This document shows positions 4,280 to 53,762 of a stretch of DNA of 64,000 nucleotides, one piece after another. This stretch comes from a virus: IMG/VR virus record IMGVR_UViG_3300039210_000244, positions 1 to 64,000 of that record. The stretch is one strand, 5' to 3'. Within the stretch, counting starts at the first letter, position 1, and every line of letters starts with the position of its first letter. The notes under the pieces are model-generated. The model did not search any database and was not told the DNA's origin. It saw nothing but the letters and a program-made list of their open reading frames with translations. The position numbers and the translations under genes are program-made.

Positions 4280-4768
4280 TCAACGGCGTTGCGGCGGAGG
4301 GCAGTGAGCAGGACTCGGCCTCGCTGCCTGATCCGATGACCGTTCATCCTCTGTCAGTACCGGGATGGCCTTACCCTTCAGCCGGCGAATGTCGAAATCC
4401 ATCGAGGCGACAGCCGCGCCAGTTTTTGCGAGCGTGCCTTTCGGCTGAACGGCGACGTGAACACATCCGCTAATGTGCATGTTGATCCCGATCGCGATTC
4501 CCTTGAATCCGCTGGCGGTGTCCGTCACCTCGGTTCCCAGCACTTCGATCGGGAAAGCTACTGCGTCGAATGCTACACCATCCATATCGAGACGATCTGG
4601 AACGACCCATACGCGATCGACCGGCTGTCCTGTCTCAGGATTGAGGCCGCGGGGTTGAAACGCATATTGGAGCCGGCGGTCGAGCTCCATGTACGCGTGA
4701 GTCACCATGCCCATCAGGCCGGTGGCAGTGTCTTTCGTGACGGAGCCGAGTTTGATGATCTTGATCAT
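4280..4768 (-). CDS. Phage protein with two tandem SH3-like repeats
   Basis: 162 aa built from two homologous units of about 50 residues: GSVTKDTATGLMGMVTHAYM...AFQPRGLNPETG (8-50) and GTEVTDTASGFKGIAIGINM...AVQPKGTLAKTG (about 78-125). This duplicated KD-TG-G...G...Q(P)KG pattern is common in small phage proteins and suggests SH3/KOW-like barrels. The function is not known. The C-terminal tail is polar and Pro-rich. The leader carries GAACCTGAA before the ATG. Confidence 0.65.
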   Translation of the reverse strand: MIKIIKLGSVTKDTATGLMGMVTHAYMELDRRLQYAFQPRGLNPETGQPVDRVWVVPDRLDMDGVAFDAVAFPIEVLGTEVTDTASGFKGIAIGINMHISGCVHVAVQPKGTLAKTGAAVASMDFDIRRLKGKAIPVLTEDERSSDQAARPSPAHCPPPQRR

Positions 4769-4813
4769 ATTTTTTTCAGGTTCAGGTTTCGGGTTTTGAT
4801 AACAGGAAAAGGT

Positions 4814-5209
4814 TCAGAGCCAAAGCCGGCGCCACCGGGCGCACCACGCTACACGCATCTGATGCTCGCGTTTGACCCGCTCCATCAACGCTTGGTTCAT
4901 CTGCAACGTTTGCTCCGCGTATCTGTCAATGTGCATTCGTTCCAGATCGCGCCTTCCGCGCGGCGTCTTGCGGCGGATATTTTTGTCCGATACAAGTGCA
5001 TTCCAGCCGTAGCATGACTCTACGGTGTAGCACGGACTACCCGCCGTTGCCCAAACGTCGATAGTTCGCGCAGGATTGTACCACCTTACTGTGCCAGATA
5101 TCACGCCATCTTCCCGGAGGAAATAGACGGCTTCGCCTTTTTTGATTGGCCACTGCTTCTGGGGTAGCGGATTGGAGATCGAAACAGGTTTCTTTGGGTC
5201 GAATTTCAT
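4814..5209 (-). CDS. Hypothetical basic protein
   Basis: 131 aa, not recognised. The N-terminal half has beta-rich segments (GEAVYFLREDGVISGTVRWYNP) like a small barrel. The C-terminal half is strongly basic and helical (RRKTPRGRRDLERMHIDRY to ARWRRLWL). It begins 6 bp after the stop of the UvrD-like helicase gene, so it is probably co-transcribed with it. Nucleic-acid association is conceivable from the charge only. Confidence 0.6.
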   Translation of the reverse strand: MKFDPKKPVSISNPLPQKQWPIKKGEAVYFLREDGVISGTVRWYNPARTIDVWATAGSPCYTVESCYGWNALVSDKNIRRKTPRGRRDLERMHIDRYAEQTLQMNQALMERVKREHQMRVAWCARWRRLWL

Positions 5210-5215
5210 GGGGAT

Positions 5216-6856
5216 TTAGACGGTGGCCGGCGTGAGTGCCGCGACCGTTTCAAAGAGTTCGCCGGGCTGGCGATTGGTCAGGACGGTCTTGTTGTTCGGC
5301 AGTGTCATGCGGCGCTGGCGCGCGCTGGTGACGACGAGCGATTTCTTTGCCCGGGTCACGGCGACGAAGAATAGTCTGCGTTCCTCCGCCATTTCCTCCG
5401 GCGTGTCGGCGGTGAAGAGTTCCGCGCCGGGAACTATCACAGAATCGAATTCCTCCCCCTTAGCCGCGTGGCAGGTCAGAATGTTCACACCTCGGATCGA
5501 TTTGGCTTCTGGCGAAGCGCGCAGGCACTCCAGCAACGCCTCAACGGTATCCGGTCGGAAGATCCGAATCCGTTCAGCCATCAGCGCGTGGCTCGCTGAG
5601 CTGACGCCGTAGCGGTGGAGATCCGCGTTGAGTGAGAGAATGACCTGCAGAGACGGGAGCGCCCAAATGGCGGCGTTTGGACACCGCTTGCGATACTCTT
5701 CGAGGTTGCGCTCGGCATCGTCCGGACTCGTGCGCTGGATGCGGGCTTGTTCGCGCGCCAGCAGTCGGGCGTTTGCCCAACTTCCGGGCGATGCGATCTG
5801 CTGCAGGATCAGGAGCAGCAAACGCCAGTCGCGCGGTTTCTTCTCGCTCTCCCGTTCGGCTACCGGGATGCCGGCCGCGTGAAGGTCTTCGCGAATTTCG
5901 TCCGCCAGCCGGTTCGTCCGGCACAGCACTGCGATTTCTGCCGGACCAACGCCGGCCGCGATCTCCATTTCGATTTCGAGGCGGACAGTCGCACGCTCGG
6001 CGTCATCGCTGCTCGTGGCGAACGTCTTCACCGTCGCCCCGTCGCCAAGCGCGCTCTCGGTCTTCTTGTCGATCCTGTCCGGATTGAGCGAGATCACGGC
6101 GTTGGCCACGTCGCAGATTTCCCGGCCGCATCGATAATTCAGGTTGAGCACGTGATGCGCGAACAGGTCCGGCATGTTCCAGAACTCCGTGACGTTCTCA
6201 GGACGTGCACCGCGAAATTTGTAAACCGACTGATCACTATCAGCCACGATCAGCAGTTGCTCGGGCTTGGCTGCCAGATAGATCGCGGCATCGACCGGTG
6301 AGCTGTCTTGATATTCGTCAACCGACCAACACGGCCACGGGTTTGATCCGCGGACCTTCATCAGCTTCAGTCCTTCGGTCAGCACCATGTCGAAGTCGAG
6401 CAAGTGCTCGCCCCGCATCCATTGGCGGTATGATCGCACAACGCGCGCGGCCTGCGTCACGCTCCGGTCATCCATCGCCAGCCCGCGAGCGGCCTCCAGC
6501 GCGGTCGCCGTGCCCTTGTAGTCCATCAGCGTCGCGTGACGGGCGAGAAATTCTCCGGCGTCCTGTTCGCCGACCATGACCCACCGCGGGTCATCGCGGC
6601 GTAGGAGCATCAACATCATCGCGTGAAGCGTGCCGACGAAGCCGGGCTTGCCGATCGTGGCGAGCAAACGCTGTTTCAGCACGCGAGCGGCGACGTTGGT
6701 GAACGTCACGAAACATTGTTGCTCGGGCTTGAATCCGATGGTTCCGAGGTGACGCGCACGCTCGACCACCACTTTGCTTTTCCCGCTCCCTGGACCGGCA
6801 ATGACCATATTCCAAGGCGCGGGCGAAATGACTGCGTTGAGTTGTTCGGTGTTCAT
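5216..6856 (-). CDS. UvrD/PcrA-like superfamily 1 DNA helicase
   Basis: 546 aa. SF1A motifs in order: Q-motif start LNAVISP, Walker A GPGSGKS (21-27), TFTNVAARVL (motif Ia), VDEYQD (179-184), ADSDQSVYKFRGA (205-217, motif III), LNYRCG (motif IV), HAAKGEEFDSVIV (motif V) and RRLFFVAVTRAKK (motif VI). It is shorter than cellular UvrD (about 720 aa), lacking part of the accessory subdomains. It should unwind DNA 3' to 5' during phage replication or recombination. Its ATG overlaps the stop of a 30-codon upstream gene (ATGA), implying coupled translation. Confidence 0.92.
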   Translation of the reverse strand: MNTEQLNAVISPAPWNMVIAGPGSGKSKVVVERARHLGTIGFKPEQQCFVTFTNVAARVLKQRLLATIGKPGFVGTLHAMMLMLLRRDDPRWVMVGEQDAGEFLARHATLMDYKGTATALEAARGLAMDDRSVTQAARVVRSYRQWMRGEHLLDFDMVLTEGLKLMKVRGSNPWPCWSVDEYQDSSPVDAAIYLAAKPEQLLIVADSDQSVYKFRGARPENVTEFWNMPDLFAHHVLNLNYRCGREICDVANAVISLNPDRIDKKTESALGDGATVKTFATSSDDAERATVRLEIEMEIAAGVGPAEIAVLCRTNRLADEIREDLHAAGIPVAERESEKKPRDWRLLLLILQQIASPGSWANARLLAREQARIQRTSPDDAERNLEEYRKRCPNAAIWALPSLQVILSLNADLHRYGVSSASHALMAERIRIFRPDTVEALLECLRASPEAKSIRGVNILTCHAAKGEEFDSVIVPGAELFTADTPEEMAEERRLFFVAVTRAKKSLVVTSARQRRMTLPNNKTVLTNRQPGELFETVAALTPATV

Positions 6857-6945
6857 GGCATGAAAACGAAGACGACGCTAAGCACGTAGCTGACGCCGAG
6901 AGCGGCGCCAAAGAGCAGCGCGGTGAGGTAGGGGTGACGTTTCAA
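6853..6945 (-). CDS. Tiny single-pass membrane protein (30 aa)
   Basis: TTG start with an AAAGGA sequence 5 nt upstream. The protein is MKRHPYLT followed by a continuous hydrophobic stretch (ALLFGAALGVSYVLSVVFVF), ending MP. The stop TGA overlaps the helicase ATG, and the start TTG overlaps the stop of the upstream gene (TTGA). Basic N-terminus plus one transmembrane helix suggest a small inner-membrane peptide. Existence is inferred from the overlaps and the hydrophobic pattern. Confidence 0.45.
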   Translation of the reverse strand: MKRHPYLTALLFGAALGVSYVLSVVFVFMP

Positions 6946-7109
6946 AACGATCCTTTCGTCAGGATCGCGATCGACCGGTAGAGCTGTTTGATCCGAGCCG
7001 TTTGGCGCGGCGTTTCACATTTGCGGCCTCCAAGGTGAAGCATTCGGCGGAGGCGGCTGTTCATCCAGTTCAGGCTGCGCTTGCGGCGTTTCTGGCACGG
7101 GCGGGTCAC
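6942..7109 (-). CDS. Small very basic protein (55 aa)
   Basis: GTG start that overlaps the stop of the upstream gene (GTGA) and a TGA stop that overlaps the TTG of the next gene. The product has a dense basic N-terminus (CQKRRKRS...RLRR) with two Cys, and no recognised domain. The double overlap in a tight four-gene chain is the main evidence that it is translated. Confidence 0.45.
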   Translation of the reverse strand: MTRPCQKRRKRSLNWMNSRLRRMLHLGGRKCETPRQTARIKQLYRSIAILTKGSF

Positions 7110-7435
7110 AGTGGACCCTCCGCTTTGGCGATTGCGGCCTCGGCCACTTGTCGCACATCACCGTTGCCAGCCAGCGCATGGCGCCACAACCTCCAATAGA
7201 CAGCCTTCAACGCCGCCAGTAGCTCAGCGTGGTTGTTCACGGCACGAACGATTACCTCGGCGTGGTGGCGACTATCCCGCGGCATGAAGCAGAACGGTTC
7301 CGTTTTTCCGCTAATAGGATCAACGCGATTGGTGCAAACGTACTCGATGTCGAAGCCATCAACATCGCGGGTTTCGATATGGAGTGGCGTTGGAGCGGCC
7401 ACAGCCGTCGTTACAGGCGATTCATTCATGTTCAT
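7106..7435 (-). CDS. Small phage protein of the AEVIVRAVNNHAELLAALK type
   Basis: 109 aa. A small beta domain (HIETRDVDGFDIEYVC...EPFCFMPRD) is followed by an amphipathic helix HAEVIVRAVNNHAELLAALK and a second helix. This helix pattern recurs in many uncharacterised phage proteins of unknown function. The gene is first in the operon with the two tiny genes and the UvrD-like helicase. It has promoter P2 and a double GAACCCGAA leader upstream. Confidence 0.7.
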   Translation of the reverse strand: MNMNESPVTTAVAAPTPLHIETRDVDGFDIEYVCTNRVDPISGKTEPFCFMPRDSRHHAEVIVRAVNNHAELLAALKAVYWRLWRHALAGNGDVRQVAEAAIAKAEGPL

Positions 7436-7481
7436 TTCGGGTTCGGGTTACTGACTCGGGTTCGGGTTGACTGACAATGGG

Positions 7482-7515
7482 AGTAAAAGAAATTAGCTCA
7501 TTAGTGTAAAGATAA
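7482..7515 (-). promoter_or_regulatory. Phage promoter P2 (TTTACA-17-TTTACT)
   Basis: Leftward: TTTTTATC then TTTACA (7510-7505), 17-bp spacer starting CTAATG, TTTACT (7487-7482). Nearly the same sequence as P1 through the spacer. It sits between the SSB terminator and gene 7106-7435. Confidence 0.7.
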
Positions 7516-7522
7516 AAAGAAA

Positions 7523-7548
7523 GAGGCGCAGAAATAAATCTGCGCCTC
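7523..7548 (-). terminator. Intrinsic terminator downstream of the SSB gene
   Basis: Stem GAGGCGCAG / CTGCGCCTC with an 8-nt AT loop. On the minus strand it is followed by TTTCTTTTT. It separates the helicase/SSB operon from promoter P2. Confidence 0.85.
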
Positions 7549-7711
7549 AGTGTTCAGGATGTGGCCGGGGTGCGTAATCGATTGTACCACTCACTTTTCA
7601 GAGCGAGGCATCGGGTGGAAGGGGACCATGTTCTAGAGCGTCCCGGTTCTCAATGCCTCTGGTTTATGCGTCCCACCTAGCCGGGGACCGGCCGCGCGTC
7701 CCAAAGGTCCC

Positions 7712-8218
7712 TTAGAAGGAAACGTCTTCGTCGAGATTCTCCGTTGCCGGCGGGCGTTGCTGCTGCTGGCGAGCCGGCGGTGCATTCCGGTTCGGCTGCT
7801 GCTGGCGCTCAGCCGGCGGCGTGTGGCGCTCCTGCTGCTGGTTGCCGTTATCGCTGCTCGACGAGCCCTCGCCGGTCTTCCCGCAGAAGTCGAATCCGCC
7901 GGACGGAAAGTTGATCGTGAGCTTCAGCTTGCTCCGCTTCTGACCGCTCGTCTTGTCCTCCCATTGATCCATCTTCACGCGGCCCCAAACTATGATCGGC
8001 GAACCTTTCACGAAAAACTTCTGGATGATCTCGCCGGTTTTCCCCCACGCTTCGCAGTCGAGGAACGTCACGTCAGACCGATCTGCTCCGCTTTCGTCTT
8101 TCCATGTGCGATTGTTCGCCACGGAAAAGTTACAGATCGCGGTGCCGTTGGGCGTGACGCGAAGTTCGGGATCTCTGGCGAGGTTCCCGCCAAAGGTTAA
8201 ATGGTTGATTCCTGGCAT
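7712..8218 (-). CDS. ssb: Single-stranded DNA-binding protein
   Basis: 168 aa. The OB-fold occupies about residues 1-110, with the usual SSB start (NHLTFGGNLARDPELR), NFSVANNRTW and GSPIIVWGRVKMDQWEDK. A flexible Q/P/N-rich linker follows, and the protein ends with an acidic tip ENLDEDVSF, the SSB protein-interaction tail (canonical DDDIPF). It should coat single-stranded DNA in replication and recruit helicases and recombinases. It belongs with the Pif1-like helicase and SMC-like genes upstream. The leader is only a weak version of the repeat motif. Confidence 0.95.
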   Translation of the reverse strand: MPGINHLTFGGNLARDPELRVTPNGTAICNFSVANNRTWKDESGADRSDVTFLDCEAWGKTGEIIQKFFVKGSPIIVWGRVKMDQWEDKTSGQKRSKLKLTINFPSGGFDFCGKTGEGSSSSDNGNQQQERHTPPAERQQQPNRNAPPARQQQQRPPATENLDEDVSF

Positions 8219-8252
8219 ATCGTTTCTTTCGTTTCGAGTATTTGTTTATTAC

Positions 8253-8708
8253 TTACGGTGAATCTGGAGCGGCATTCAGTAAAAGACCGTTCATTCCGGC
8301 CTTCATATAACGCTGGAAAACTGTTTCGCCTGACGAGGTGCGAGCGTACGGCAGAAAAACTTGATCGAGACGGACCATTGCCGTTTGCACGAGCGCGAGC
8401 TGCGCTTCAATCCAGTCTTTGATGATTCGCCAGCCTACGCGGGCAGCCTGCTCGCGCGTGACCAAGCGTGTCGGAATTTTACCGGCCTTGTGCTGCTTCT
8501 GGAGGATCGCGAATACAGCTTCCGTGTTGCATGGCAGCTGGTAGGTTGTCGGGCCAAACTCAGTTGCGATGCGGAATGAGATCCCGGATACGATGCCGCC
8601 GGAATACTCCGTCATGATCGCGATCGCACCCGCCCGCGCGAGGGTGCTCTGGATCTCGGAAACGGATTTCTCCGCTGCGATCTGCGTCGTGTAGTTGAGG
8701 ATGGCCAT
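8253..8708 (-). CDS. Conserved phage hypothetical protein (MAILNYTT type)
   Basis: 151 aa from the ATG at 8708; a longer frame exists but begins inside the neighbouring gene. The sequence MAILNYTTQIAAEKSVSEIQ followed by a beta-strand-rich part (GGIVSGISFRI) and helices (REQAARVGWRIIKDWIEAQLALVQT) matches a protein type I know from phage genomes beside SSB and recombination genes, without assigned function. The conserved arginines and the helix-rich C-terminus suggest a soluble accessory protein. Confidence 0.75.
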   Translation of the reverse strand: MAILNYTTQIAAEKSVSEIQSTLARAGAIAIMTEYSGGIVSGISFRIATEFGPTTYQLPCNTEAVFAILQKQHKAGKIPTRLVTREQAARVGWRIIKDWIEAQLALVQTAMVRLDQVFLPYARTSSGETVFQRYMKAGMNGLLLNAAPDSP

Positions 8709-8718
8709 GCGTGGAAAA

Positions 8719-8988
8719 TTAGAAGACGTGGAGGAACTCCTGCGCATCGACGCGGTAGATTTTGCAGCCAGAAAACTCTGCGCGGTCCGATTCCTCGAAC
8801 GTTGGATCGTAGGTTGGTTTTCCGCCTTTCCATTCAGCTCCCCAAAGGGAGCAGAGCGTAATGAGCTCTGACCATTCGTTATGACCGAGGAAAATCTTCG
8901 TCGGAGTTCCCGCGTGCTTGGCCACGATCTCGGCCATGATGCGGCCGTAAATCGCGACGCGCGGGGTTGGTTGTTCGTTCTCTTTCAT
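8719..8988 (-). CDS. Hypothetical protein, 89 aa
   Basis: Starts at the ATG 8988, which overlaps the TGA of the Pif1-like helicase gene (ATGA); this overlap fixes the start over a longer in-frame opening. It begins MKENEQPTPRVAIYGRIMAEIVAKHAG and ends YRVDAQEFLHVF. No family recognised. Mixed alpha/beta composition. Likely co-translated with the helicase. Confidence 0.65.
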   Translation of the reverse strand: MKENEQPTPRVAIYGRIMAEIVAKHAGTPTKIFLGHNEWSELITLCSLWGAEWKGGKPTYDPTFEESDRAEFSGCKIYRVDAQEFLHVF

Positions 8989-10256
8989 GCTGCGTTGAGT
9001 TTGTAGAATTCCAGTGCGGCCGGGTGGGCGTGAATCGAGTTCCCGCTGATGTCGGCGATGAACAAACCTTCGAGCGTCTTGCAGCGTGAGAGCGCGACGT
9101 ACGCCTGTCCCGGCGCGAAACACCGCTTCAGATGCACGCGAACCTTATCGAGCGTCGCACCCTGCGCTTTGTGGGCAGTGATGGCGTACGCAAGGCGAAG
9201 CGGGATCTGCCGGCGGCTGGCGAGCACGTCGTGTTTCGACCTGACGATTTGCCACTCAGCTTGATCAATCTCCAATTTTGCGCCGTTCGTGAACTCAACG
9301 ACAGGGTATTTGCAGCCTGGACGCTCTTTGATCGCGACGACCTCGCCGAGACTTCCGTTCACGAGACCGGCTTCGGTATCGAGGTTCTTGAGCAACATCA
9401 CCTGCGCGCCGATCTTCAGCTGTAGCGTTTTCGGCGCGAGGCAGTCTTTCTCCAGCTTCTTTCGGTTGTGGTCTCCGTCGGCCCAATCGCTGGCGTCCCA
9501 TATGTGCAGGTCTGTTTTCAGCGCCGCCAGCGACTCCGCATTGATTCGGTCGGCGTGTTCGTTGTGTGTCACGATCTCCACCGGCTTGATGCGCGGGTCC
9601 GAGTCCACTGCGTTGATGCGCGGGCGGAGAACCGCACGAACGTCCTCGCTGGTATCGCCAACGCGGACACGGCTGAGGATGTCAGAGAACGCGCGCTCTT
9701 TCTGGCGCATGACTTCCGTCAGCACGAAGACCTTCACTTCAGCGGCCGGCCAGCAACGCGCCTCGAAGGCGAATCGCACCGGTTGACCCTGTTCACCGAT
9801 CGGTGGCAACTGGCAAAAATCACCGATGAAGATCATCTGAATTCCCCCGAACGGCGCCGACTTTTTGCGCACGAGCTGAAGCATCAAGTCGAGCTTATCC
9901 AACAGATCGGCCTCAATCATGGAAATCTCGTCGATCGCCAGCATCTTCGCTTTGCAGATTTCGTAGAACACCCCGTTTTTCCGTTCGAGGTGCTTCTTCG
10001 CGATCTCCATCGCACTGTCTCGCCCCATGCCGAGGCCGGCCCAACTGTGCAGCGTGCTTCCTCCAATTTGGATCGCTGCGATCCCGGTTGAGGCGCAGAC
10101 CTGCAAATCGGAATACTGTGACCGGAGGTAGCGGAGCAACGTGGATTTACCCGTACCGGCGGCGCCAGTGAACATCACGTTTCGTCCGGCGCGGATCTCA
10201 GTCACGCCGGCCTGCTGCTTGGCGTTCAACTGCTCGAATTTGAGTTCGGCTTCCAT
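8985..10256 (-). CDS. Pif1/RecD-type superfamily 1B DNA helicase
   Basis: 423 aa. Walker A GAAGTGKST (31-39), STGIAAIQIGGSTLHSWAGLG (typical Pif1 Ia region), Walker B IDEIS (108-112), GDFCQLPP (145-152, Pif1 motif III), and near the C-terminus YAITAHKAQGATLD (motif V) and YVALSRCKTLEGL (motif VI). Pif1-like proteins unwind DNA 5' to 3'. In this phage it likely serves replication or recombination together with SSB and the UvrD-like helicase. It begins 2 bp after the stop of the SMC-like gene. Confidence 0.93.
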   Translation of the reverse strand: MEAELKFEQLNAKQQAGVTEIRAGRNVMFTGAAGTGKSTLLRYLRSQYSDLQVCASTGIAAIQIGGSTLHSWAGLGMGRDSAMEIAKKHLERKNGVFYEICKAKMLAIDEISMIEADLLDKLDLMLQLVRKKSAPFGGIQMIFIGDFCQLPPIGEQGQPVRFAFEARCWPAAEVKVFVLTEVMRQKERAFSDILSRVRVGDTSEDVRAVLRPRINAVDSDPRIKPVEIVTHNEHADRINAESLAALKTDLHIWDASDWADGDHNRKKLEKDCLAPKTLQLKIGAQVMLLKNLDTEAGLVNGSLGEVVAIKERPGCKYPVVEFTNGAKLEIDQAEWQIVRSKHDVLASRRQIPLRLAYAITAHKAQGATLDKVRVHLKRCFAPGQAYVALSRCKTLEGLFIADISGNSIHAHPAALEFYKLNAA

Positions 10257-12598: not shown

Positions 12599-12715
12599 TG
12601 TTCTTTCGGGTTCGGGTTTCTATTCGGGTTCGAGAGACGGAGACGCGCGGGTGATTCATGCCCATCTATTCTCGGGAGCGCCGGATTGCCCGGCACAACA
12701 CACCCCGCGCGAAAT

Positions 12716-16263: not shown

Positions 16264-16326
16264 GTTACTATGGTTGTAGTTTACTGAATCCGTTATCCGC
16301 GAATTGTCGGAGAATCACTGTTCGGC
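16264..16326 (+). other. Putative attI site
   Basis: The short space between the intI start and the first cassette. It ends with GTTCGGC (16320-16326), the same core as the R' box of attC1 and attC5, exactly where the first cassette boundary is expected. No other conserved attI element can be recognised, which is normal because attI sites vary between integrons. Confidence 0.6.
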
Positions 16327-16327
16327 A

Positions 16328-16627
16328 TCACGGTTTGAGTGCCGCGAGTAGGCGGCGGAAGATTCCGGGGCGCTTACGGTTTTGCGCCGCTTGCGACGAC
16401 GCATAGATGGGGTTCTGGCGGATCGCGACGAAGCCGTGCGTTTCGCAGAGCTGCCCCAGGTGCTTGCCGCGTCCGCTGAGTTTCCAGCGTGTGAGCGAGC
16501 CGCAGACTGGGCAGGTTGTCGGCCACGTAGTCGGAGCCGAACTAGACGCCACACCCAATTCGGGGGCGCGTCCGTCGCAGGCTCCGGCGGGAGTCACAGG
16601 AAGAGAAGGAAGGGTTGCAGTGCTCAT
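16328..16627 (-). CDS. Cassette 1 gene: zinc-ribbon protein
   Basis: 99 aa. The start lies in the loop of attC1, so residues about 20-33 (APELGVASSSAP) are encoded by the attC L''/R'' arm. The body holds a zinc-ribbon-like pair CPVCG...LCETHG and a basic C-terminus (NRKRPGIFRRLLAALKP). The stop is 2 bp from the attI core. Function unknown; zinc binding is inferred. Confidence 0.65.
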   Translation of the reverse strand: MSTATLPSLPVTPAGACDGRAPELGVASSSAPTTWPTTCPVCGSLTRWKLSGRGKHLGQLCETHGFVAIRQNPIYASSQAAQNRKRPGIFRRLLAALKP

Positions 16628-16668
16628 AAAGTTTTCAGGCCCCCGAATTGGTGATCTTGGTGTTCGGC
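16536..16668 (+). repeat. attC1
   Basis: R'' GCCGAAC (16536-16542), L'' CACCCAATTCGGGGGC (to 16567), 71-nt loop, L' GCCCCCGAATTGGTG (16639-16653), R' GTTCGGC (16662-16668). L'' and L' pair with one unpaired base, as in attC sites. Confidence 0.85.
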
Positions 16669-16958
16669 AAAACGAAGACGCCCGGCCTTACGCGGACAAG
16701 CAGCCTGCGTTTCACCATTGTTGAGAGGGTCGCGCCGACGTGTTTTCCGGCGTTGCAGTAGATATTTCTCCCGATGAGTTCTACCGCGGCTTCGAGTGTG
16801 ATTTTCCCGCAGATGTGGCAGTGTTCGATTACGGCTTTTTGCTTCGGCGAGAGTCGCACCGCCGAACCAGACGCCAGAGCACAACGCGCCAGCGTGGCCC
16901 GTTTTTCGGGAGTGGCTTCAACGCTCAACATCTCCAGTTGTTCAGGCGCGTGGCTCAT
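16635..16958 (-). CDS. Cassette 2 gene: winged-helix-like protein
   Basis: 107 aa. It starts in the L' arm of attC2 and its attC-encoded segment reads ARCALASGSAVRLSP. The core (SPKQKAVIEHCHICGKITLEAAVELIG...HVGATLSTMVKRRLLVRVRPGVFVLP) looks like a winged helix-turn-helix with a two-strand wing. The last residues (NTKITNSGA) and the stop are encoded by the attC1 arm of the neighbouring cassette, so the ORF crosses the recombination point. Probable small DNA-binding regulator. Confidence 0.65.
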   Translation of the reverse strand: MSHAPEQLEMLSVEATPEKRATLARCALASGSAVRLSPKQKAVIEHCHICGKITLEAAVELIGRNIYCNAGKHVGATLSTMVKRRLLVRVRPGVFVLPNTKITNSGA

Positions 16959-16972
16959 CTTAGGTGTTAGGC
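16862..16972 (+). repeat. attC2
   Basis: R'' GCCGAAC (16862-16868), L'' AGAGCACAACGCGCC (about 16875-16892), L' AGGCGCGTGGCTC (16944-16955), R' GTTAGGC (16966-16972), a perfect GTTRRRY core. Confidence 0.8.
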
Positions 16973-16976
16973 ACGA

Positions 16977-17267
16977 TCAATTGAAGCCCTCGATGTAGTG
17001 GCGCATTTGAACGGGCGAAGAAAGCAGACCGGCCATGAGCTGCATCATGCCGAGCTGGATGCCCACGTGTCCCTCGGTATCGGGGTGCTTCCCAAGGTCG
17101 CTGGCCATGCTCGCGAAGGCTTGGTTTACGTCTCCCATGTCGCAGTATTCGAGGGCGCGTTTCTTGCACCACGCTAGATGCTCGGCGCGTGAAGACGGAG
17201 CCGAACCATGTGCTAGAGAGGAACGCCCACTATCGGGGCCTTCGATTGAGTCTGTTGGATTTTTCAT
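16977..17267 (-). CDS. Cassette 3 gene: hypothetical protein
   Basis: 96 aa. Start in the attC3 loop; attC-encoded segment SSLAHGSAPSS. The body is helical (RAEHLAWCKKRALEYCDMGDVNQAFASMASDLGKH...GIQLGMMQLMAGLLSSPVQMRHYIEGF) and resembles helical proteins that recur in phage and integron cassettes, without assigned role. The stop is just before the attC2 R' box, so the ORF stays within its own cassette. Confidence 0.65.
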   Translation of the reverse strand: MKNPTDSIEGPDSGRSSLAHGSAPSSRAEHLAWCKKRALEYCDMGDVNQAFASMASDLGKHPDTEGHVGIQLGMMQLMAGLLSSPVQMRHYIEGFN

Positions 17268-17324
17268 GTTGGTTTTGGTTACTGAGATTTTTCCCGGTGG
17301 GCGTCCCTCACCACGCCGTTCGCC
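17200..17324 (+). repeat. attC3
   Basis: R'' GCCGAAC (17200-17206), L'' GAGAGGAACGCCCAC (about 17215-17230), L' GGTGGGCGTCCCTC (17296-17309), R' GTTCGCC (17318-17324). The left half closely resembles the isolated half site at 22162-22191. Confidence 0.8.
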
Positions 17325-17632
17325 AAAGCTATTTTACGATGGTGCTCGCACGGCGCACTTTCAGGGCAGCAATCCGTGATCCCGATGCGGCGACCTTCCG
17401 CGTTCAGGCATGGCCCTAGCCAAACTCGTTCGCCGTCGTAGTTTGTTATCACCATGTCCACGTTCCAACTGAGTGCCTTTAGTAGCAGCTCCGCCTCTCT
17501 GGTTGTGGGCTGGTCCCTGTCGAGCGATTCCCGAAGAGAACGCAGAGGCGAACCAGCGATTACAGACAACGACCCGCACTGTCCGGCTGGCGAAGGGTCA
17601 GCGTTGGCGGGAGTTTGGATTTCAGGTTTCAT
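17279..17632 (-). CDS. Cassette 4 gene: hypothetical protein with zinc-like Cys/His
   Basis: 117 aa. Start in the attC4 loop; attC-encoded GSLSVIAGSPL. The body includes EAELLLKALSWNVDMVITNYDGERVWLGPCLNAEGR and TDCCPESAPCEHHRK, a Cys/His cluster that could bind zinc. The C-terminus (ANGVVRDAHREKSQ) and stop are encoded by attC3. Function unknown. Its ATG overlaps the stop of the cassette 5 gene. Confidence 0.6.
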   Translation of the reverse strand: MKPEIQTPANADPSPAGQCGSLSVIAGSPLRSLRESLDRDQPTTREAELLLKALSWNVDMVITNYDGERVWLGPCLNAEGRRIGITDCCPESAPCEHHRKIALANGVVRDAHREKSQ

Positions 17633-17677
17633 GGTTTGAGTGGTTCGGCGGGTCGTGTCTGACTCGCGCCGTTAGCC
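17547..17677 (+). repeat. attC4
   Basis: R'' GGCGAAC (17547-17553), L'' CAGACAACGACCCGC (17563-17577), L' GCGGGTCGTGTCTG (17648-17661), R' GTTAGCC (17671-17677). The arms pair perfectly except for one extrahelical base in L''. Confidence 0.88.
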
Positions 17678-18015
17678 AGAAGGGCGTTTCCGAGCTTGTC
17701 GTAAGCGTAGCGCAGCTCCCGCACGGCGTCGCCAGATAGCCCGACCTTGCCTTGCTGAGCAGCATGTAGGTGGTCGAAGTCGAACCATGCGCGGGCTTCG
17801 CCTATCGTGTTACGCAGGCATGCGTCTTCGTAGCCCTCCGGAGAGCACCGCATCTTCACGCACGTCCATCCCTTGCGCCGAGCCTGTCGCCATTTCATGT
17901 CGCTGAGCCACGCATCGAAAGCGGTGATGCATTCGGCGCGGGTTGGGCGCATTAAGAAGGGGCAGTGACCGCCTTCGGGGGTCGCGATGACCCACATTAC
18001 ATAAGGGAATTTCAT
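17629..18015 (-). CDS. Cassette 5 gene: hypothetical protein
   Basis: 128 aa. Unlike the others, its ATG lies just outside its attC (attC5 begins at 18027), so it has no attC-encoded N-terminus. Sequence MKFPYVMWVIATPEGGHCPFL, a conserved-looking ECITAFDAWLSDMKWRQARRKGW and SGDAVRELRYAYDKLGNALLANG. The C-terminus (ANGASQTRPAEPLKP) is encoded by attC4, and its stop overlaps the cassette 4 start (ATGA). No family recognised. Confidence 0.65.
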   Translation of the reverse strand: MKFPYVMWVIATPEGGHCPFLMRPTRAECITAFDAWLSDMKWRQARRKGWTCVKMRCSPEGYEDACLRNTIGEARAWFDFDHLHAAQQGKVGLSGDAVRELRYAYDKLGNALLANGASQTRPAEPLKP

Positions 18016-18026
18016 AGATTTTCAGA

Positions 18027-18112
18027 GGCTAACCAGCCATCAGAGCCAACGCCGACAATCGTCAGGGATAGATTAGGCATTGGGGCGGCGTGGCTCACCG
18101 TGACCGTTCGGC
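18027..18112 (+). repeat. attC5 (short)
   Basis: R'' GGCTAAC (18027-18033), L'' CAGAGCCAACGCCGAC (18041-18055), L' GCGGCGTGGCTC (18085-18096), R' GTTCGGC (18106-18112). At 86 bp it is the shortest site; its loop lacks a start codon but holds the stop of the cassette 6 gene. Confidence 0.8.
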
Positions 18113-18468
18113 GAAGGTGAGCCGTGAGGATCGTAGGCGTTGCAGTGAGGGCATCGTTCGGTGAAGGTGCGCGGCTCCATTTCGACCGCGCCCGCGCAGT
18201 TCCAGCAGTCGCGGCAGTCTATGCTAGCGACTGCACGCGCATAAGCTGCGCGAAGAGGTTTCTCGCGGAAGTCGCGGCAGAGTTGCCGGACCTCGACTGA
18301 TTCATGCGCCAGTTCGCGCTCGAACAGATGTGCGATTTTCGCGATTCGGCGTGGGTGGTTGAGCGGAATATTGTCGCGACCGCGCGGCATTACCGGAGCC
18401 GAACCAGTTGCCAGAGCCAACGTCTCTGCCGGCCCGTCCTTTTTCGATTGGTTTTCTTGAGTGCTCAT
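18073..18468 (-). CDS. Cassette 6 gene: zinc-ribbon-like protein
   Basis: 131 aa. Start in the attC6 loop; attC-encoded ETLALATGSAPV. The C-terminal part has two Cys pairs (DCRDCWNCAGAVEM and ERCPHCNAYD) typical of a small zinc ribbon; the middle is helical with REKPLRAAYARAVASI. The last residues (NGHGEPRRPNA) and stop are encoded by attC5. Function unknown; nucleic acid or protein binding is possible. Confidence 0.65.
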   Translation of the reverse strand: MSTQENQSKKDGPAETLALATGSAPVMPRGRDNIPLNHPRRIAKIAHLFERELAHESVEVRQLCRDFREKPLRAAYARAVASIDCRDCWNCAGAVEMEPRTFTERCPHCNAYDPHGSPSPNGHGEPRRPNA

Positions 18469-18516
18469 AGTTGAGAGTTTTTCGCGGCAGAGCCGTTGCT
18501 CATCGTGGTGTTCGCA
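18398..18516 (+). repeat. attC6
   Basis: R'' GCCGAAC (18398-18404), L'' CAGAGCCAACGTCTCTGCCG (18412-18431), L' CGGCAGAGCCGTTGCTC (18485-18501), R' GTTCGCA (18510-18516). Long paired arms with one base missing opposite L''. Confidence 0.85.
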
Positions 18517-18905
18517 GAATCAATCACGTCGCGCATGAGTCGGTAAGTTTTCGGTGCGTTGTAAGCCTTGCACCAGTCGAGTCCGACTTCGTTCAAGAAC
18601 GCCTGCTCGATTTCATTCCAGCGGGCTATCAGCGCGGCCCACACTTTCGACGCCACGGCGATTTTCGGGAAAGCGTCACGTACTGCAGGCGCAGCCTTGA
18701 GCAGCAGCAGGCAGCGGTTCAGGTCGTCGGGGTCGTGTGGGTAGTTGATGCGTTCCGGCGTTGAGCCGAGCGCGATCATGGCCATCGTTTTTGACGAGAG
18801 GCCGACGCGCCCGTTTGCGAGCCAGTCTAAGACACGCGAACCAGTCGCGACAGACAACGATCCGCCACTGTCCGTTTTCGTGGAGTTTTCAGTTGGATTA
18901 TTCAT
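18465..18905 (-). CDS. Cassette 7 gene: hypothetical helical protein
   Basis: 146 aa. Start in the attC7 loop; attC-encoded GGSLSVATGSRV. The body (GRVGLSSKTMAMIALGSTPERINYPHDPDDLNRCLLLLKAAPAVRD, then WAALIARWNEIEQAFLNEVG) resembles a group of phage and prophage hypothetical proteins of similar size. The C-terminus (NTTMSNGSAAKNSQL) is encoded by attC6 and the stop overlaps the cassette 6 ATG. Function unknown. Confidence 0.68.
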   Translation of the reverse strand: MNNPTENSTKTDSGGSLSVATGSRVLDWLANGRVGLSSKTMAMIALGSTPERINYPHDPDDLNRCLLLLKAAPAVRDAFPKIAVASKVWAALIARWNEIEQAFLNEVGLDWCKAYNAPKTYRLMRDVIDSANTTMSNGSAAKNSQL

Positions 18906-18948
18906 GTTTGGAAATTTGGGCGGATCGCGTCTGCCCTAGGTGTTAGGC
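18835..18948 (+). repeat. attC7
   Basis: R'' CGCGAAC (18835-18841), L'' CAGACAACGATCCGCC (18851-18866), L' GGCGGATCGCGTCTG (18919-18933), R' GTTAGGC (18942-18948). Last site of the array; the stop of gene 18936-19427 lies between L' and R'. Confidence 0.88.
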
Positions 18949-19427
18949 TTTCTTTCGCTTGGGCAAAACGGGGTCATTTCATGCACGCTAAGAGCCTCCG
19001 TCCGTGGTTTGCCGCGAATCATTCCGCAGGACCACACCGAAGCATCTCCCTCGGGGTCGAGTTGTTCGATAAGCCAGCAAAGGCCTTTCGCAGCCTTCAC
19101 AGCACGCGCGTCGCGACGGGCCTGCATCGCGGCTTTCTTTTCGAGCCGATCGCTCTCGTCTTGCGCCATTTTGGCCAGCATCTCAGAGACGCCTAGGGCG
19201 AAGATCGCGGCCTGTGCCGGGAAGTCCTTCCCGAGTTTTGCGAGGTGTTCCCATGCCTTTTTTGGCTGCTCACCGTAATAGAGCTTGGTCCACATCGGAT
19301 GATCCTTCGTTTTCGAGATCGAATCCAGGCTGGCGATATTGTGCTGCGCCATGATGGCCGCGCGTTCATCGTCGGACATTGGGATCTCGCAGCGGTGTTC
19401 AAGCAGGAGTTTTGACAGGGTGCTCAT
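18936..19427 (-). CDS. Hypothetical protein upstream of the cassette array
   Basis: 163 aa. Not recognised. The middle is Ala/Lys/Arg-rich and helical (SEMLAKMAQDESDRLEKKAAMQARRDARAVKAAKGL). The C-terminal segment CWLIEQLDPEGDASVWSCGMIRGKP is more globular. The gene has promoter P4 and a GAACCCGAAACGAC leader directly before its ATG. Its last codons run into attC7, so it lies half outside the integron and probably delivers transcription to the cassettes. Confidence 0.65.
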   Translation of the reverse strand: MSTLSKLLLEHRCEIPMSDDERAAIMAQHNIASLDSISKTKDHPMWTKLYYGEQPKKAWEHLAKLGKDFPAQAAIFALGVSEMLAKMAQDESDRLEKKAAMQARRDARAVKAAKGLCWLIEQLDPEGDASVWSCGMIRGKPRTEALSVHEMTPFCPSERKPNT

Positions 19428-19463
19428 GTCGTTTCGGGTTCGGGTTAAACTGACTACCCGAAT

Positions 19464-21039: not shown

Positions 21040-21087
21040 AATTCGGGTTCGGTTCAGGGTGTTGGATAGAGCGGGCGACCTTGGCGA

Positions 21088-21935: not shown

Positions 21936-22292
21936 TCACTTGATGACCTCGATTATCATGGTACCGCGAATCTCCACGAGCAGGCCGGTTTTCTCGTCCT
22001 CGAAGTAGCAGCCGTCACCCTGCACGTCGGTCACGGCTCCGGTTGTCGTCCAAGATTCGATCGGATTTCCGCTGTTTCCGTAGAGCGTGATCTTGTGCCG
22101 CTTTCCCAGCGCATTGAAGGACGCCACTTCCGCGTCAGTGCAGGCAGCGAGAAAGAGCAGAGCCAAACCAGCCACTAGAGCCAACGCCCACAGTCGGGGG
22201 CTTCGGCGATTGGCGGCGCGGATGATTCGGCTGTAAGCCATCCTCAGTTCGGGGATGGCGGACACTGCAACTGTCATGTTTTTCGTGCTCAT
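21936..22292 (-). CDS. Phage lipoprotein
   Basis: 118 aa. An unusually long N-terminal region ends in a hydrophobic segment and lipobox (LLFLAAC, residues about 45-51). The mature part FNALGKRHKITLYGNSGNPIESWTTTGAVTDVQGDGCYFEDEKTGLLVEIRGTMIIEVIK matches a small periplasmic lipoprotein type seen in many phages, of unknown function. The DNA for RRSPRLWALALVAGL is homologous to the left half of attC3 in the integron, so part of the signal sequence seems derived from an attC fragment. Promoter P5 and a CCCGAAACGAC leader precede it. Confidence 0.75.
   Translation of the reverse strand: MSTKNMTVAVSAIPELRMAYSRIIRAANRRSPRLWALALVAGLALLFLAACTDAEVASFNALGKRHKITLYGNSGNPIESWTTTGAVTDVQGDGCYFEDEKTGLLVEIRGTMIIEVIK
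22162..22191 (+). repeat. Isolated half attC (R'' and L'' only)
   Basis: GCCAAAC (22162-22168), a short spacer, then CTAGAGCCAACGCCCAC (22175-22191), continuing with GTCGGGGGCTTCG as in attC3. No matching L'/R' arm is found in the following 200 bp. It lies in the coding region for the lipoprotein signal sequence. Confidence 0.6.
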
Positions 22293-22327
22293 GTCGTTTC
22301 GGGTTCTGGTTGCTGACTGACACGAAC

Positions 22328-51158: not shown

Positions 51159-51496
51159 CGCCCCACCTCGTCGAGTAGTTGCGACGCTGCTGCCCGGCAT
51201 CGGTCGAGCTCGCGCATGTGCACGAGCGTTGGCTTCGCGTCGTCCTCGACGATTCGAGCGGCAGCACTGGCGAGATTGCGCAGTGCCTCAGCCAGCTTAG
51301 ACGCTAGTACACTGGCGGCATCATACGCGGCGGTCTGCTTCTGCCACTGATCTCTCCAGTACGCGACCGCTGGCACCGCGTCGTTTGCACTGCGCGCTTC
51401 GGTGATGATCGCTTCGAGTTCAGGCACCAACGCAATTGCCTCGGGCATGTTCACGTCGTCGGCGATCGCGCAGATATGCTCGGCGAGATTTTTCAT
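51155..51496 (-). CDS. Helical protein, 113 aa
   Basis: MKNLAEHICAIADDVNMPEAIALVPELEAIITEARSANDAVPAVAYWRDQWQKQTAAYDAASVLASKLAEAL; Ala-rich coiled-coil type with no recognised family. Leader GAACCCGAAACGAAA directly before the ATG. Confidence 0.6.
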   Translation of the reverse strand: MKNLAEHICAIADDVNMPEAIALVPELEAIITEARSANDAVPAVAYWRDQWQKQTAAYDAASVLASKLAEALRNLASAAARIVEDDAKPTLVHMRELDRCRAAASQLLDEVGR

Positions 51497-51530
51497 TTTC
51501 GTTTCGGGTTCGGGTTTCGTTTCGGGAAAT

Positions 51531-52063: not shown

Positions 52064-52597
52064 TCAGCTCTGCTTCTCTAACTTGAAATATCCACTCGGC
52101 GCCGCCTGAACCGCCAGCGAGGTGAAGAGCTCCAGCCCTTTCTTGCGTGAGTCACCGTGCAGACACCAATCGCGGATCTCCGGCATGATCTTCGGAACCG
52201 CGTACTGCAGCAGGTTGTTCTCTGCGATGATTTGAAGATGCTCGGCCATCAGCGCCGGACAGGCACCATCCGGACCGGTGAACCCATGCGCACGGTGTTC
52301 CTTGTCGCACTCAGCGAACCACGGCGTCGTTTGCGAATCCGGCGCGAGCCAGATGTATTTCATGTCGGTGATGACCTCGCCCAGCTTCTCGCCACGGGCG
52401 ACGTTCTTCGGATCGACCGTGAACGTGTAGAGCTCGAACAGCGGTTGAATGTAGGCGTCAACGCGCTCGCGTTCGAGTTGGGCGAAGGCTTTGGCCATCG
52501 CGTACGCCTTCACGCAGGCCCAGAACGTCGGGTCTTTGGCGAAGGCTTTGAGCTTCGGGATAGTGAGCGGAGAGGACTTCGTTTCGGTGGTTGTCAT
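52064..52597 (-). CDS. Hypothetical protein, 177 aa
   Basis: LTIPKLKAFAKDPTFWACVKAYAMAKAFAQLERERVDAYIQPLFELYTF, VITDMKYIWLAPDSQTTPWFAECDKEHRAHGFTGPDGACPALMAEHLQ. It looks like a globular alpha/beta protein; I do not recognise the family. Own promoter P6 and GAACCCGAACCCGAAATGAC leader. Confidence 0.65.
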   Translation of the reverse strand: MTTTETKSSPLTIPKLKAFAKDPTFWACVKAYAMAKAFAQLERERVDAYIQPLFELYTFTVDPKNVARGEKLGEVITDMKYIWLAPDSQTTPWFAECDKEHRAHGFTGPDGACPALMAEHLQIIAENNLLQYAVPKIMPEIRDWCLHGDSRKKGLELFTSLAVQAAPSGYFKLEKQS

Positions 52598-52628
52598 TTC
52601 GGGTTCGGGTTCTAACTGGAACGATCTA

Positions 52629-53725: not shown

Positions 53726-53762
53726 GTTCTATTCGGGTTCGGGTTAATCTGACTACCCAAAT

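Follow-up and report, generated by a model that had tools for sequence, protein, structure and literature searches.

The stretch of DNA analyzed here (the window) spans bases 1-64000 of the 84,461-bp IMG/VR virus record IMGVR_UViG_3300039210_000244 and appears to carry a complete integron, made up of an integron integrase gene (intI), an attI site and an array of seven attC recombination sites with their gene cassettes (Table 1). The same contig encodes terminase, portal, head and tail proteins, a tape measure protein and helicases, which marks it as a tailed-phage genome, and the integron sits within this tailed-phage record of 84.5 kb. All seven cassette open reading frames (ORFs) are on the minus strand, antisense to their own attC and on the same strand as intI, towards which they head. 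The canonical layout, with the gene sense to the attC and the attC at the 3' end of the gene, is not found in the window. This antisense orientation is the main novelty of the locus and was absent from an earlier annotation made from the letters alone (the sequence-only reading), which had described the array.

Table 1 Features of the integron in the window (CM, covariance model score; a slash marks the crossover point)
Feature	Position	Strand	Evidence and remarks
intI, integron integrase, 323 aa	15292-16263	-	TIGR02249, PDB 2A3V, catalytic residues
attI	16309-16326	+	...GGAGAATCACTG/TTCGGC, crossover after G16320; core matches R'' of first attC
attC site 1	16536-16668	+	CM 14.8 bits; R''/L''/L'/R'; fold z -2.0
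attC site 2	16861-16972	+	CM 19.8 bits
attC site 3	17200-17324	+	CM 24.2 bits, E 0.0026
attC site 4	17547-17677	+	CM 21.2 bits
attC site 5	18027-18112	+	CM 27.7 bits, E 0.0004
attC site 6	18398-18516	+	CM 10.5 bits, weakest of seven
attC site 7	18835-18948	+	CM 13.0 bits; fold z -3.6
Cassette 1 ORF, 99 aa	16328-16627	-	Starts in attC 1; CxxC motif; 31 attC-encoded residues; no family matched
Cassette 2 ORF, 107 aa	16635-16958	-	Starts in attC 2, stops in attC 1
Cassette 3 ORF, 96 aa	16977-17267	-	Starts in attC 3
Cassette 4 ORF, 117 aa	17279-17632	-	Starts in attC 4, stops in attC 3
Cassette 5 ORF, 128 aa	17629-18015	-	Starts just past attC 5, stops in attC 4; ATGA overlap with cassette 4 ORF
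Cassette 6 ORF, 131 aa, zinc-ribbon-like	18073-18468	-	Starts in attC 6, stops in attC 5; PF14599 E 6e-4, below its cut-off
Cassette 7 ORF, 146 aa, phrog_1229 family	18465-18905	-	attC-encoded N-terminal extension; stops in attC 6

The seven attC sites all lie on the plus strand, measure 86-133 bp and are spaced 304-435 bp from crossover to crossover. Along that strand each opens with a GCCGAAC-like R'' and closes with a GTTCGGC- or GTTAGGC-like R', and between them two complementary arms (L'' and L') enclose a loop; the R''..AAC and GTT..R' pair can be read in every one. The sequence-only reading had described this R''-L''-loop-L'-R' anatomy, the L''/L' complementarity, the GTT core, the sizes and the spacing, and all of it is present where that reading had placed it. 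For the extrahelical base, which that reading gave as one per site, the count is one or two. The extra bases fall in the 5' arm in 7/7 sites, which is the canonical attC asymmetry; the plus strand is therefore the top strand and the array is directed away from intI. Bottom-strand folding, a check suggested in the same annotation, gave folds that beat most shuffles (z -1.7 to -3.6).

The sites were also scored with a covariance model built from 40 attC sites of bacterial integrons adjoining intI, which was then used to search bacterial loci only (86 matches) and rebuilt with loops; the models being home-made, their E-values are rough. An initial model, in which loop sequence was lacking, had not picked up the window sites; the final one tolerates long loops. 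In a filter-free scan of the window region the top seven matches were the seven sites, all on the plus strand and with exact ends, the next match reaching 6.2 bits. Over all 64 kb, again without filters, the seven took ranks 1-6 and 8 (27.7-10.5 bits), with 11.0 bits for the best chance match. The bacterially trained model thus bears out the earlier claim of a real attC array, for which a score at none of the sites had been named as the contrary outcome. Rfam holds no family matching the sites, and no second attC array was found by the covariance model in the 64-kb window and the rest of the record. We conclude that the seven are real attC sites in canonical polarity.

The gene beside the array encodes a recombinase of the IntI type, and all attC sites face the same way next to it, as the first annotation had it. 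Its best NCBIfam match is TIGR02249 (integron integrase; 212.7 bits, E 8e-63), and its closest solved structure is Vibrio cholerae IntI4 (PDB 2A3V; 124.5 bits versus 78 for the next, XerC-like, structure). The catalytic residues R139, K164, H272, R275, H295 and Y304 are present, and the IntI-type ALxxKYP..W..FPS region (insert) is conserved. The gene product is also the sole PF00589 (tyrosine recombinase) match in the 84-kb record, in which no PF00239 (serine recombinase) match was found, and on this ground the enzyme could be taken for the phage's own prophage integrase and the repeats for att or regulatory sequences unrelated to cassette exchange. This is very unlikely, given that the recombinase sequence is IntI-type, that a model of bacterial attC recognizes the repeats and places their ends correctly, and that they carry the circle signature described below. 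The recombinase may have a second role in phage integration. The attI site is identified by the match of the first cassette's R'' to GTTCGGC at 16320, which lies 57 bp from the start of intI; the intI-side boundary of the array had been placed correctly at this position. The motif AGAATCA.TG(G)/TT or a close variant occurs upstream of intI in six viral contigs, namely the window and loci L014, L016, L019, L024 and L060.

Integron cassettes insert as circles at the G/TT of R', and the R'' of a site is therefore expected to match the R' of the previous junction and not its own. In the window, R'' agrees with the R' core of the previous site at 26/28 bases and with its own R' at 18/28 (permutation p = 0.0012). 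The comparison set comprised 71 viral and 64 bacterial cassette pairs, and in the viral arrays R'' matched the previous R' at 3.79 of 4 bases on average against 2.14 for its own (p = 6e-11). Such neighbour-wise matching is the mark of cassettes inserted as circles. The test is symmetric under strand reversal, so the polarity of the array is taken from attI, from the strand of the model matches and from the 5'-arm position of the extra base.

Six of the seven ORFs begin inside their own attC, with 23-33 attC-encoded residues, and the frame at the R'' core is identical in all six. Five ORFs cross the next R' core, in the same phase each time (5/5), and stop in the attC of their neighbour. The protein of cassette 7 matches phrog_1229 (E 4e-34); the match starts at residue 23, which coincides with the attC edge. 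The protein has homologues in 241 phage records, those listed aligning from residue 23-24; this minus-strand homology establishes the strand of the cassette 7 gene. Four cassette proteins were searched, and apart from an identical contig no other phage was found to carry any of them as an attC-flanked cassette; cassette proteins 3 and 5 had no matches in the phage collection.

A motif from the attC arm is common to six of the frames, and the repeats might accordingly be a coding artefact, in which paralogous proteins share an N-terminal motif (..LAxATGSAP..) whose DNA is palindromic by chance. However, the protein bodies look unrelated, and the homologues of cassette 7 lack the N-terminal part and stand without attC in the loci checked. 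Pairing of R'' with the R' of a neighbouring site is not predicted by protein coding, and in the viral contig L032 the layout recurs with ribosome-binding sites and with attC that are canonical and non-coding. We consider an artefact of this kind scarcely credible.

The antisense layout is the rule among the integron-bearing IMG/VR contigs that were compared, as homology confirms. Relatives of this IntI were sought in IMG/VR, giving 396 candidate contigs of which 80 were fetched, and the model found attC arrays in many. Orientation was assigned per cassette from the longest frame, in clear cassettes of arrays 5' of intI. The longest frame was co-directional with intI in 49/59 viral cassettes (window included) versus 3/46 bacterial ones (Fisher p = 4e-16, although the cassettes are not independent); by locus, the counts of co-directional to opposite were 16 to 2 in viruses and 0 to 13 in bacteria. 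Where viral arrays lie 3' of intI (Rctr41k, L065 and L058), their genes are sense to attC and hence also co-directional with intI. A codon-usage test of orientation, which called 16 bacterial controls 'anti' and 35 'sense', proved too noisy and gave way to ORF length and homology.

ORF length is a weak witness in GC-rich DNA, hence homology and the AT-rich contig L032 matter most. The 70 antisense frames matched 16 Pfam families and 58 PHROGs, including a Mom-like protein, versus 3 Pfam families for the 60 sense frames, at least two of them in L065, whose array is downstream. The families found antisense comprise N6/N4, C5 and Dam methyltransferases, Lar restriction alleviation, the Acb2/Tad1 hairpin, DUF5131, PAPS reductase and others. 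L032 (41% GC; terminase, capsid and portal present) is the clearest case, with canonical non-coding attC on one strand and every gene on the other; most of its genes have a ribosome-binding site that can be seen immediately beyond the attC. In L061 (portal present), two methyltransferase genes start inside their own attC, as in the window. Two neighbouring cassettes at 6066-7575 of that contig have near-identical attC and related methyltransferase genes, a possible case of cassette duplication followed by divergence.

PHROG portal searches found a portal gene in 16/30 integron-bearing viral contigs tested; metagenome contigs may be fragments or misassigned, and this may apply to those that lack a portal gene. 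Of loci L012-L090, 21/79 have a contig end no more than 600 bp from intI on the side of the array, against 4 with one on the opposite side, as though variable arrays interrupted assembly. In virus Rctr41k (L007, KX853513), positions 4680-10100 contain an IntI annotated as xerD and, downstream, an attC array whose cassettes, among them methyltransferase genes, are in sense orientation; the annotation of the stretch examined has no integron feature.

Related viruses also point to fresh exchange at attI. L014 and L016 share 99% identity over 9 kb that include intI, diverge exactly at the GTT of attI and have different first cassettes, and L033, L041 and L045 (94-97% identity) likewise diverge at this GTT with different first cassettes. 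A relative phage (G004, 95 kb; locus L189, 2719-15119; terminase 52%) has the flanking genes in the same order as the window, while its slot holds a different gene set, without IntI and without attC. The sequence-only reading would have been troubled by related phages with the same gene order but no repeats, and this comparison gives it no such case. By eye from the translations, the slot of L189 has PAPS-reductase-like, C5 and N6 methyltransferase-like, GNAT-like and XRE-like genes; it is a hypervariable slot, perhaps for counter-defence genes. An identical 17-kb stretch was found in another metagenome contig.

A repeated element, (A)ACCCGAACCCGAAA.., occurs on the minus strand of the window at 2650-2671, 7436-7450, 12605-12619, 19425-19447, 21042-21056, 22290-22312, 51495-51517, 52590-52612 and 53732-53746, many of its copies directly upstream of gene starts and one (19433) just upstream of the gene preceding the array. 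TAACCCGAACCCGAA has 15 matches versus 0.06 expected, all on the minus strand and none within the cassette array. The element is possibly a phage promoter or initiation signal.

Vibrio phages are documented to have captured integron fragments (PMC9892861), the relative phage lacks the element, and recombination at this locus is deduced from sequence; the array could on these grounds be a piece of a bacterial integron that the phage caught by chance and that has decayed and no longer works. We regard such a relic as improbable. The IntI frame is intact with all catalytic residues kept, and in a tree of 148 IntIs the protein groups with viral and not bacterial ones. Homologues were found for a single cassette gene, and this one is a phage gene; the cassette genes follow the orientation of the phage, and related viruses show the apparent exchange at attI set out above.

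Our proposal is instead that a complete integron is, very probably, cargo of this tailed phage in a hypervariable slot, with its cassette genes reversed and with intI, cassettes and phage genes read one way. It draws on anatomy, circle signature, polarity, frame conservation and phage context, all visible in the sequence. The phage IntI is probably active and would recombine attC, as a folded bottom strand, with attI (at G16320), so that small single-gene cassettes are inserted or removed. The attC keep the usual polarity, away from intI, with the genes inside the cassettes turned round, which makes cassettes, intI and surrounding phage genes co-directional. Because the genes are reversed relative to attC, the 5' end of each gene is where its attC stands. 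The attC would in this phage also be coding, with the start codon in the loop and the ribosome reading through the arm in one fixed frame. Most frames stop within the attC that belongs to the following gene, which gives overlapping or abutting genes like those of a compact phage operon, and cassette swaps could leave the frames intact. On the simplest view, phage operons would run one way, with intI on that strand, and attI would fix the polarity of attC; co-transcription of an upstream array with intI may then be possible only by turning the genes inside the cassettes. The array is probably transcribed from its distal (19.4-kb) side towards intI, and a cassette promoter Pc reading away from intI would not serve the antisense genes of this layout.

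Several points weigh against this proposal. Individual attC scores are modest (10.5-27.7 bits), and only site 3 passes the default speed filters (E 0.0026); single scores being modest, the attC evidence is the set of seven. The intI product falls below the curated TIGR02249 cut-off (212.7 versus 265 bits) and sits on a long branch in the tree. Within the array, cassette 3 has a longer ORF on the plus strand than on the minus strand, six of the seven frames are without homology support and the exact start codons are predictions. Judged by ORF length, 10/59 clear viral cassettes have the opposite orientation. The one further copy found of the array is identical, which means that turnover is seen in other viruses and not in this phage. 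The earlier claim that the phage can swap small genes by integron recombination is supported by IntI family membership, attI, the seven attC sites, the circle signature and the phage hallmarks around them, but the recombination itself is something we infer.

Phage integrons are already known. Qi et al. 2023 (PMC9892861) reported phage integrons and clusters of attC sites lacking integrases (CALINs), phage attC that proved functional with IntI1, and methyltransferase cargo. Three complete phage integrons are listed there, in a Vibrio phage, a Shewanella phage and as class 1 fragments in P1, as well as integrase-less clusters in virulent phages and arrays of the usual direction in two virulent phages, TJE1 and PH101. 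The window resembles these in having IntI, attI and attC on a phage, and its related contigs also have methyltransferase cargo; it differs in its diverged, phage-clade IntI, its antisense cassettes and its family of related viruses. With bacterial integrons (classes 1-3 and the Vibrio superintegron; IntI4, PDB 2A3V) it shares the integrase family, attC structure and polarity, an attI 5' of intI, an array running away from intI and the circle signature. However, bacterial genes run with attC and away from intI (43/46 clear cassettes of 5'-side controls), whereas those in the window run against attC and with intI. Where the array lies 3' of intI (Acidobacteria/Planctomycetes L100, L112, L137 and L140; virus Rctr41k; the L065 clade), the genes are likewise co-directional with intI, but there co-direction follows from the array position with genes sense to attC, whereas in the window the array is on the 5' side and the genes are antisense. 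No description of an antisense cassette layout in phages was found in the open literature, subscription papers and preprints being outside its scope, and the reversed layout is new as far as found.

Integrons have been regarded as tools of bacteria, and those in phages as fragments that were captured. With less confidence than for the window itself, we think it fairly likely that phages own a distinct and widespread integron class, with several virus-only IntI clades, antisense cassettes co-transcribed with intI and the operon, some protein-coding attC and exchangeable counter-defence libraries. Homology in the related contigs suggests cargo directed mainly against host defences; the window proteins are mostly of no assigned function. 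Should viruses operate integrons of their own in which the cassettes are reversed, phages would have a defined mechanism for fast turnover of small anti-restriction and other accessory genes, and cassettes a route between phages and bacteria. The reversed polarity would have to be known when phage integrons are screened or cassettes annotated. It also makes testable the translation of folded attC and the tolerance of, or preference for, reversed genes by phage IntI.

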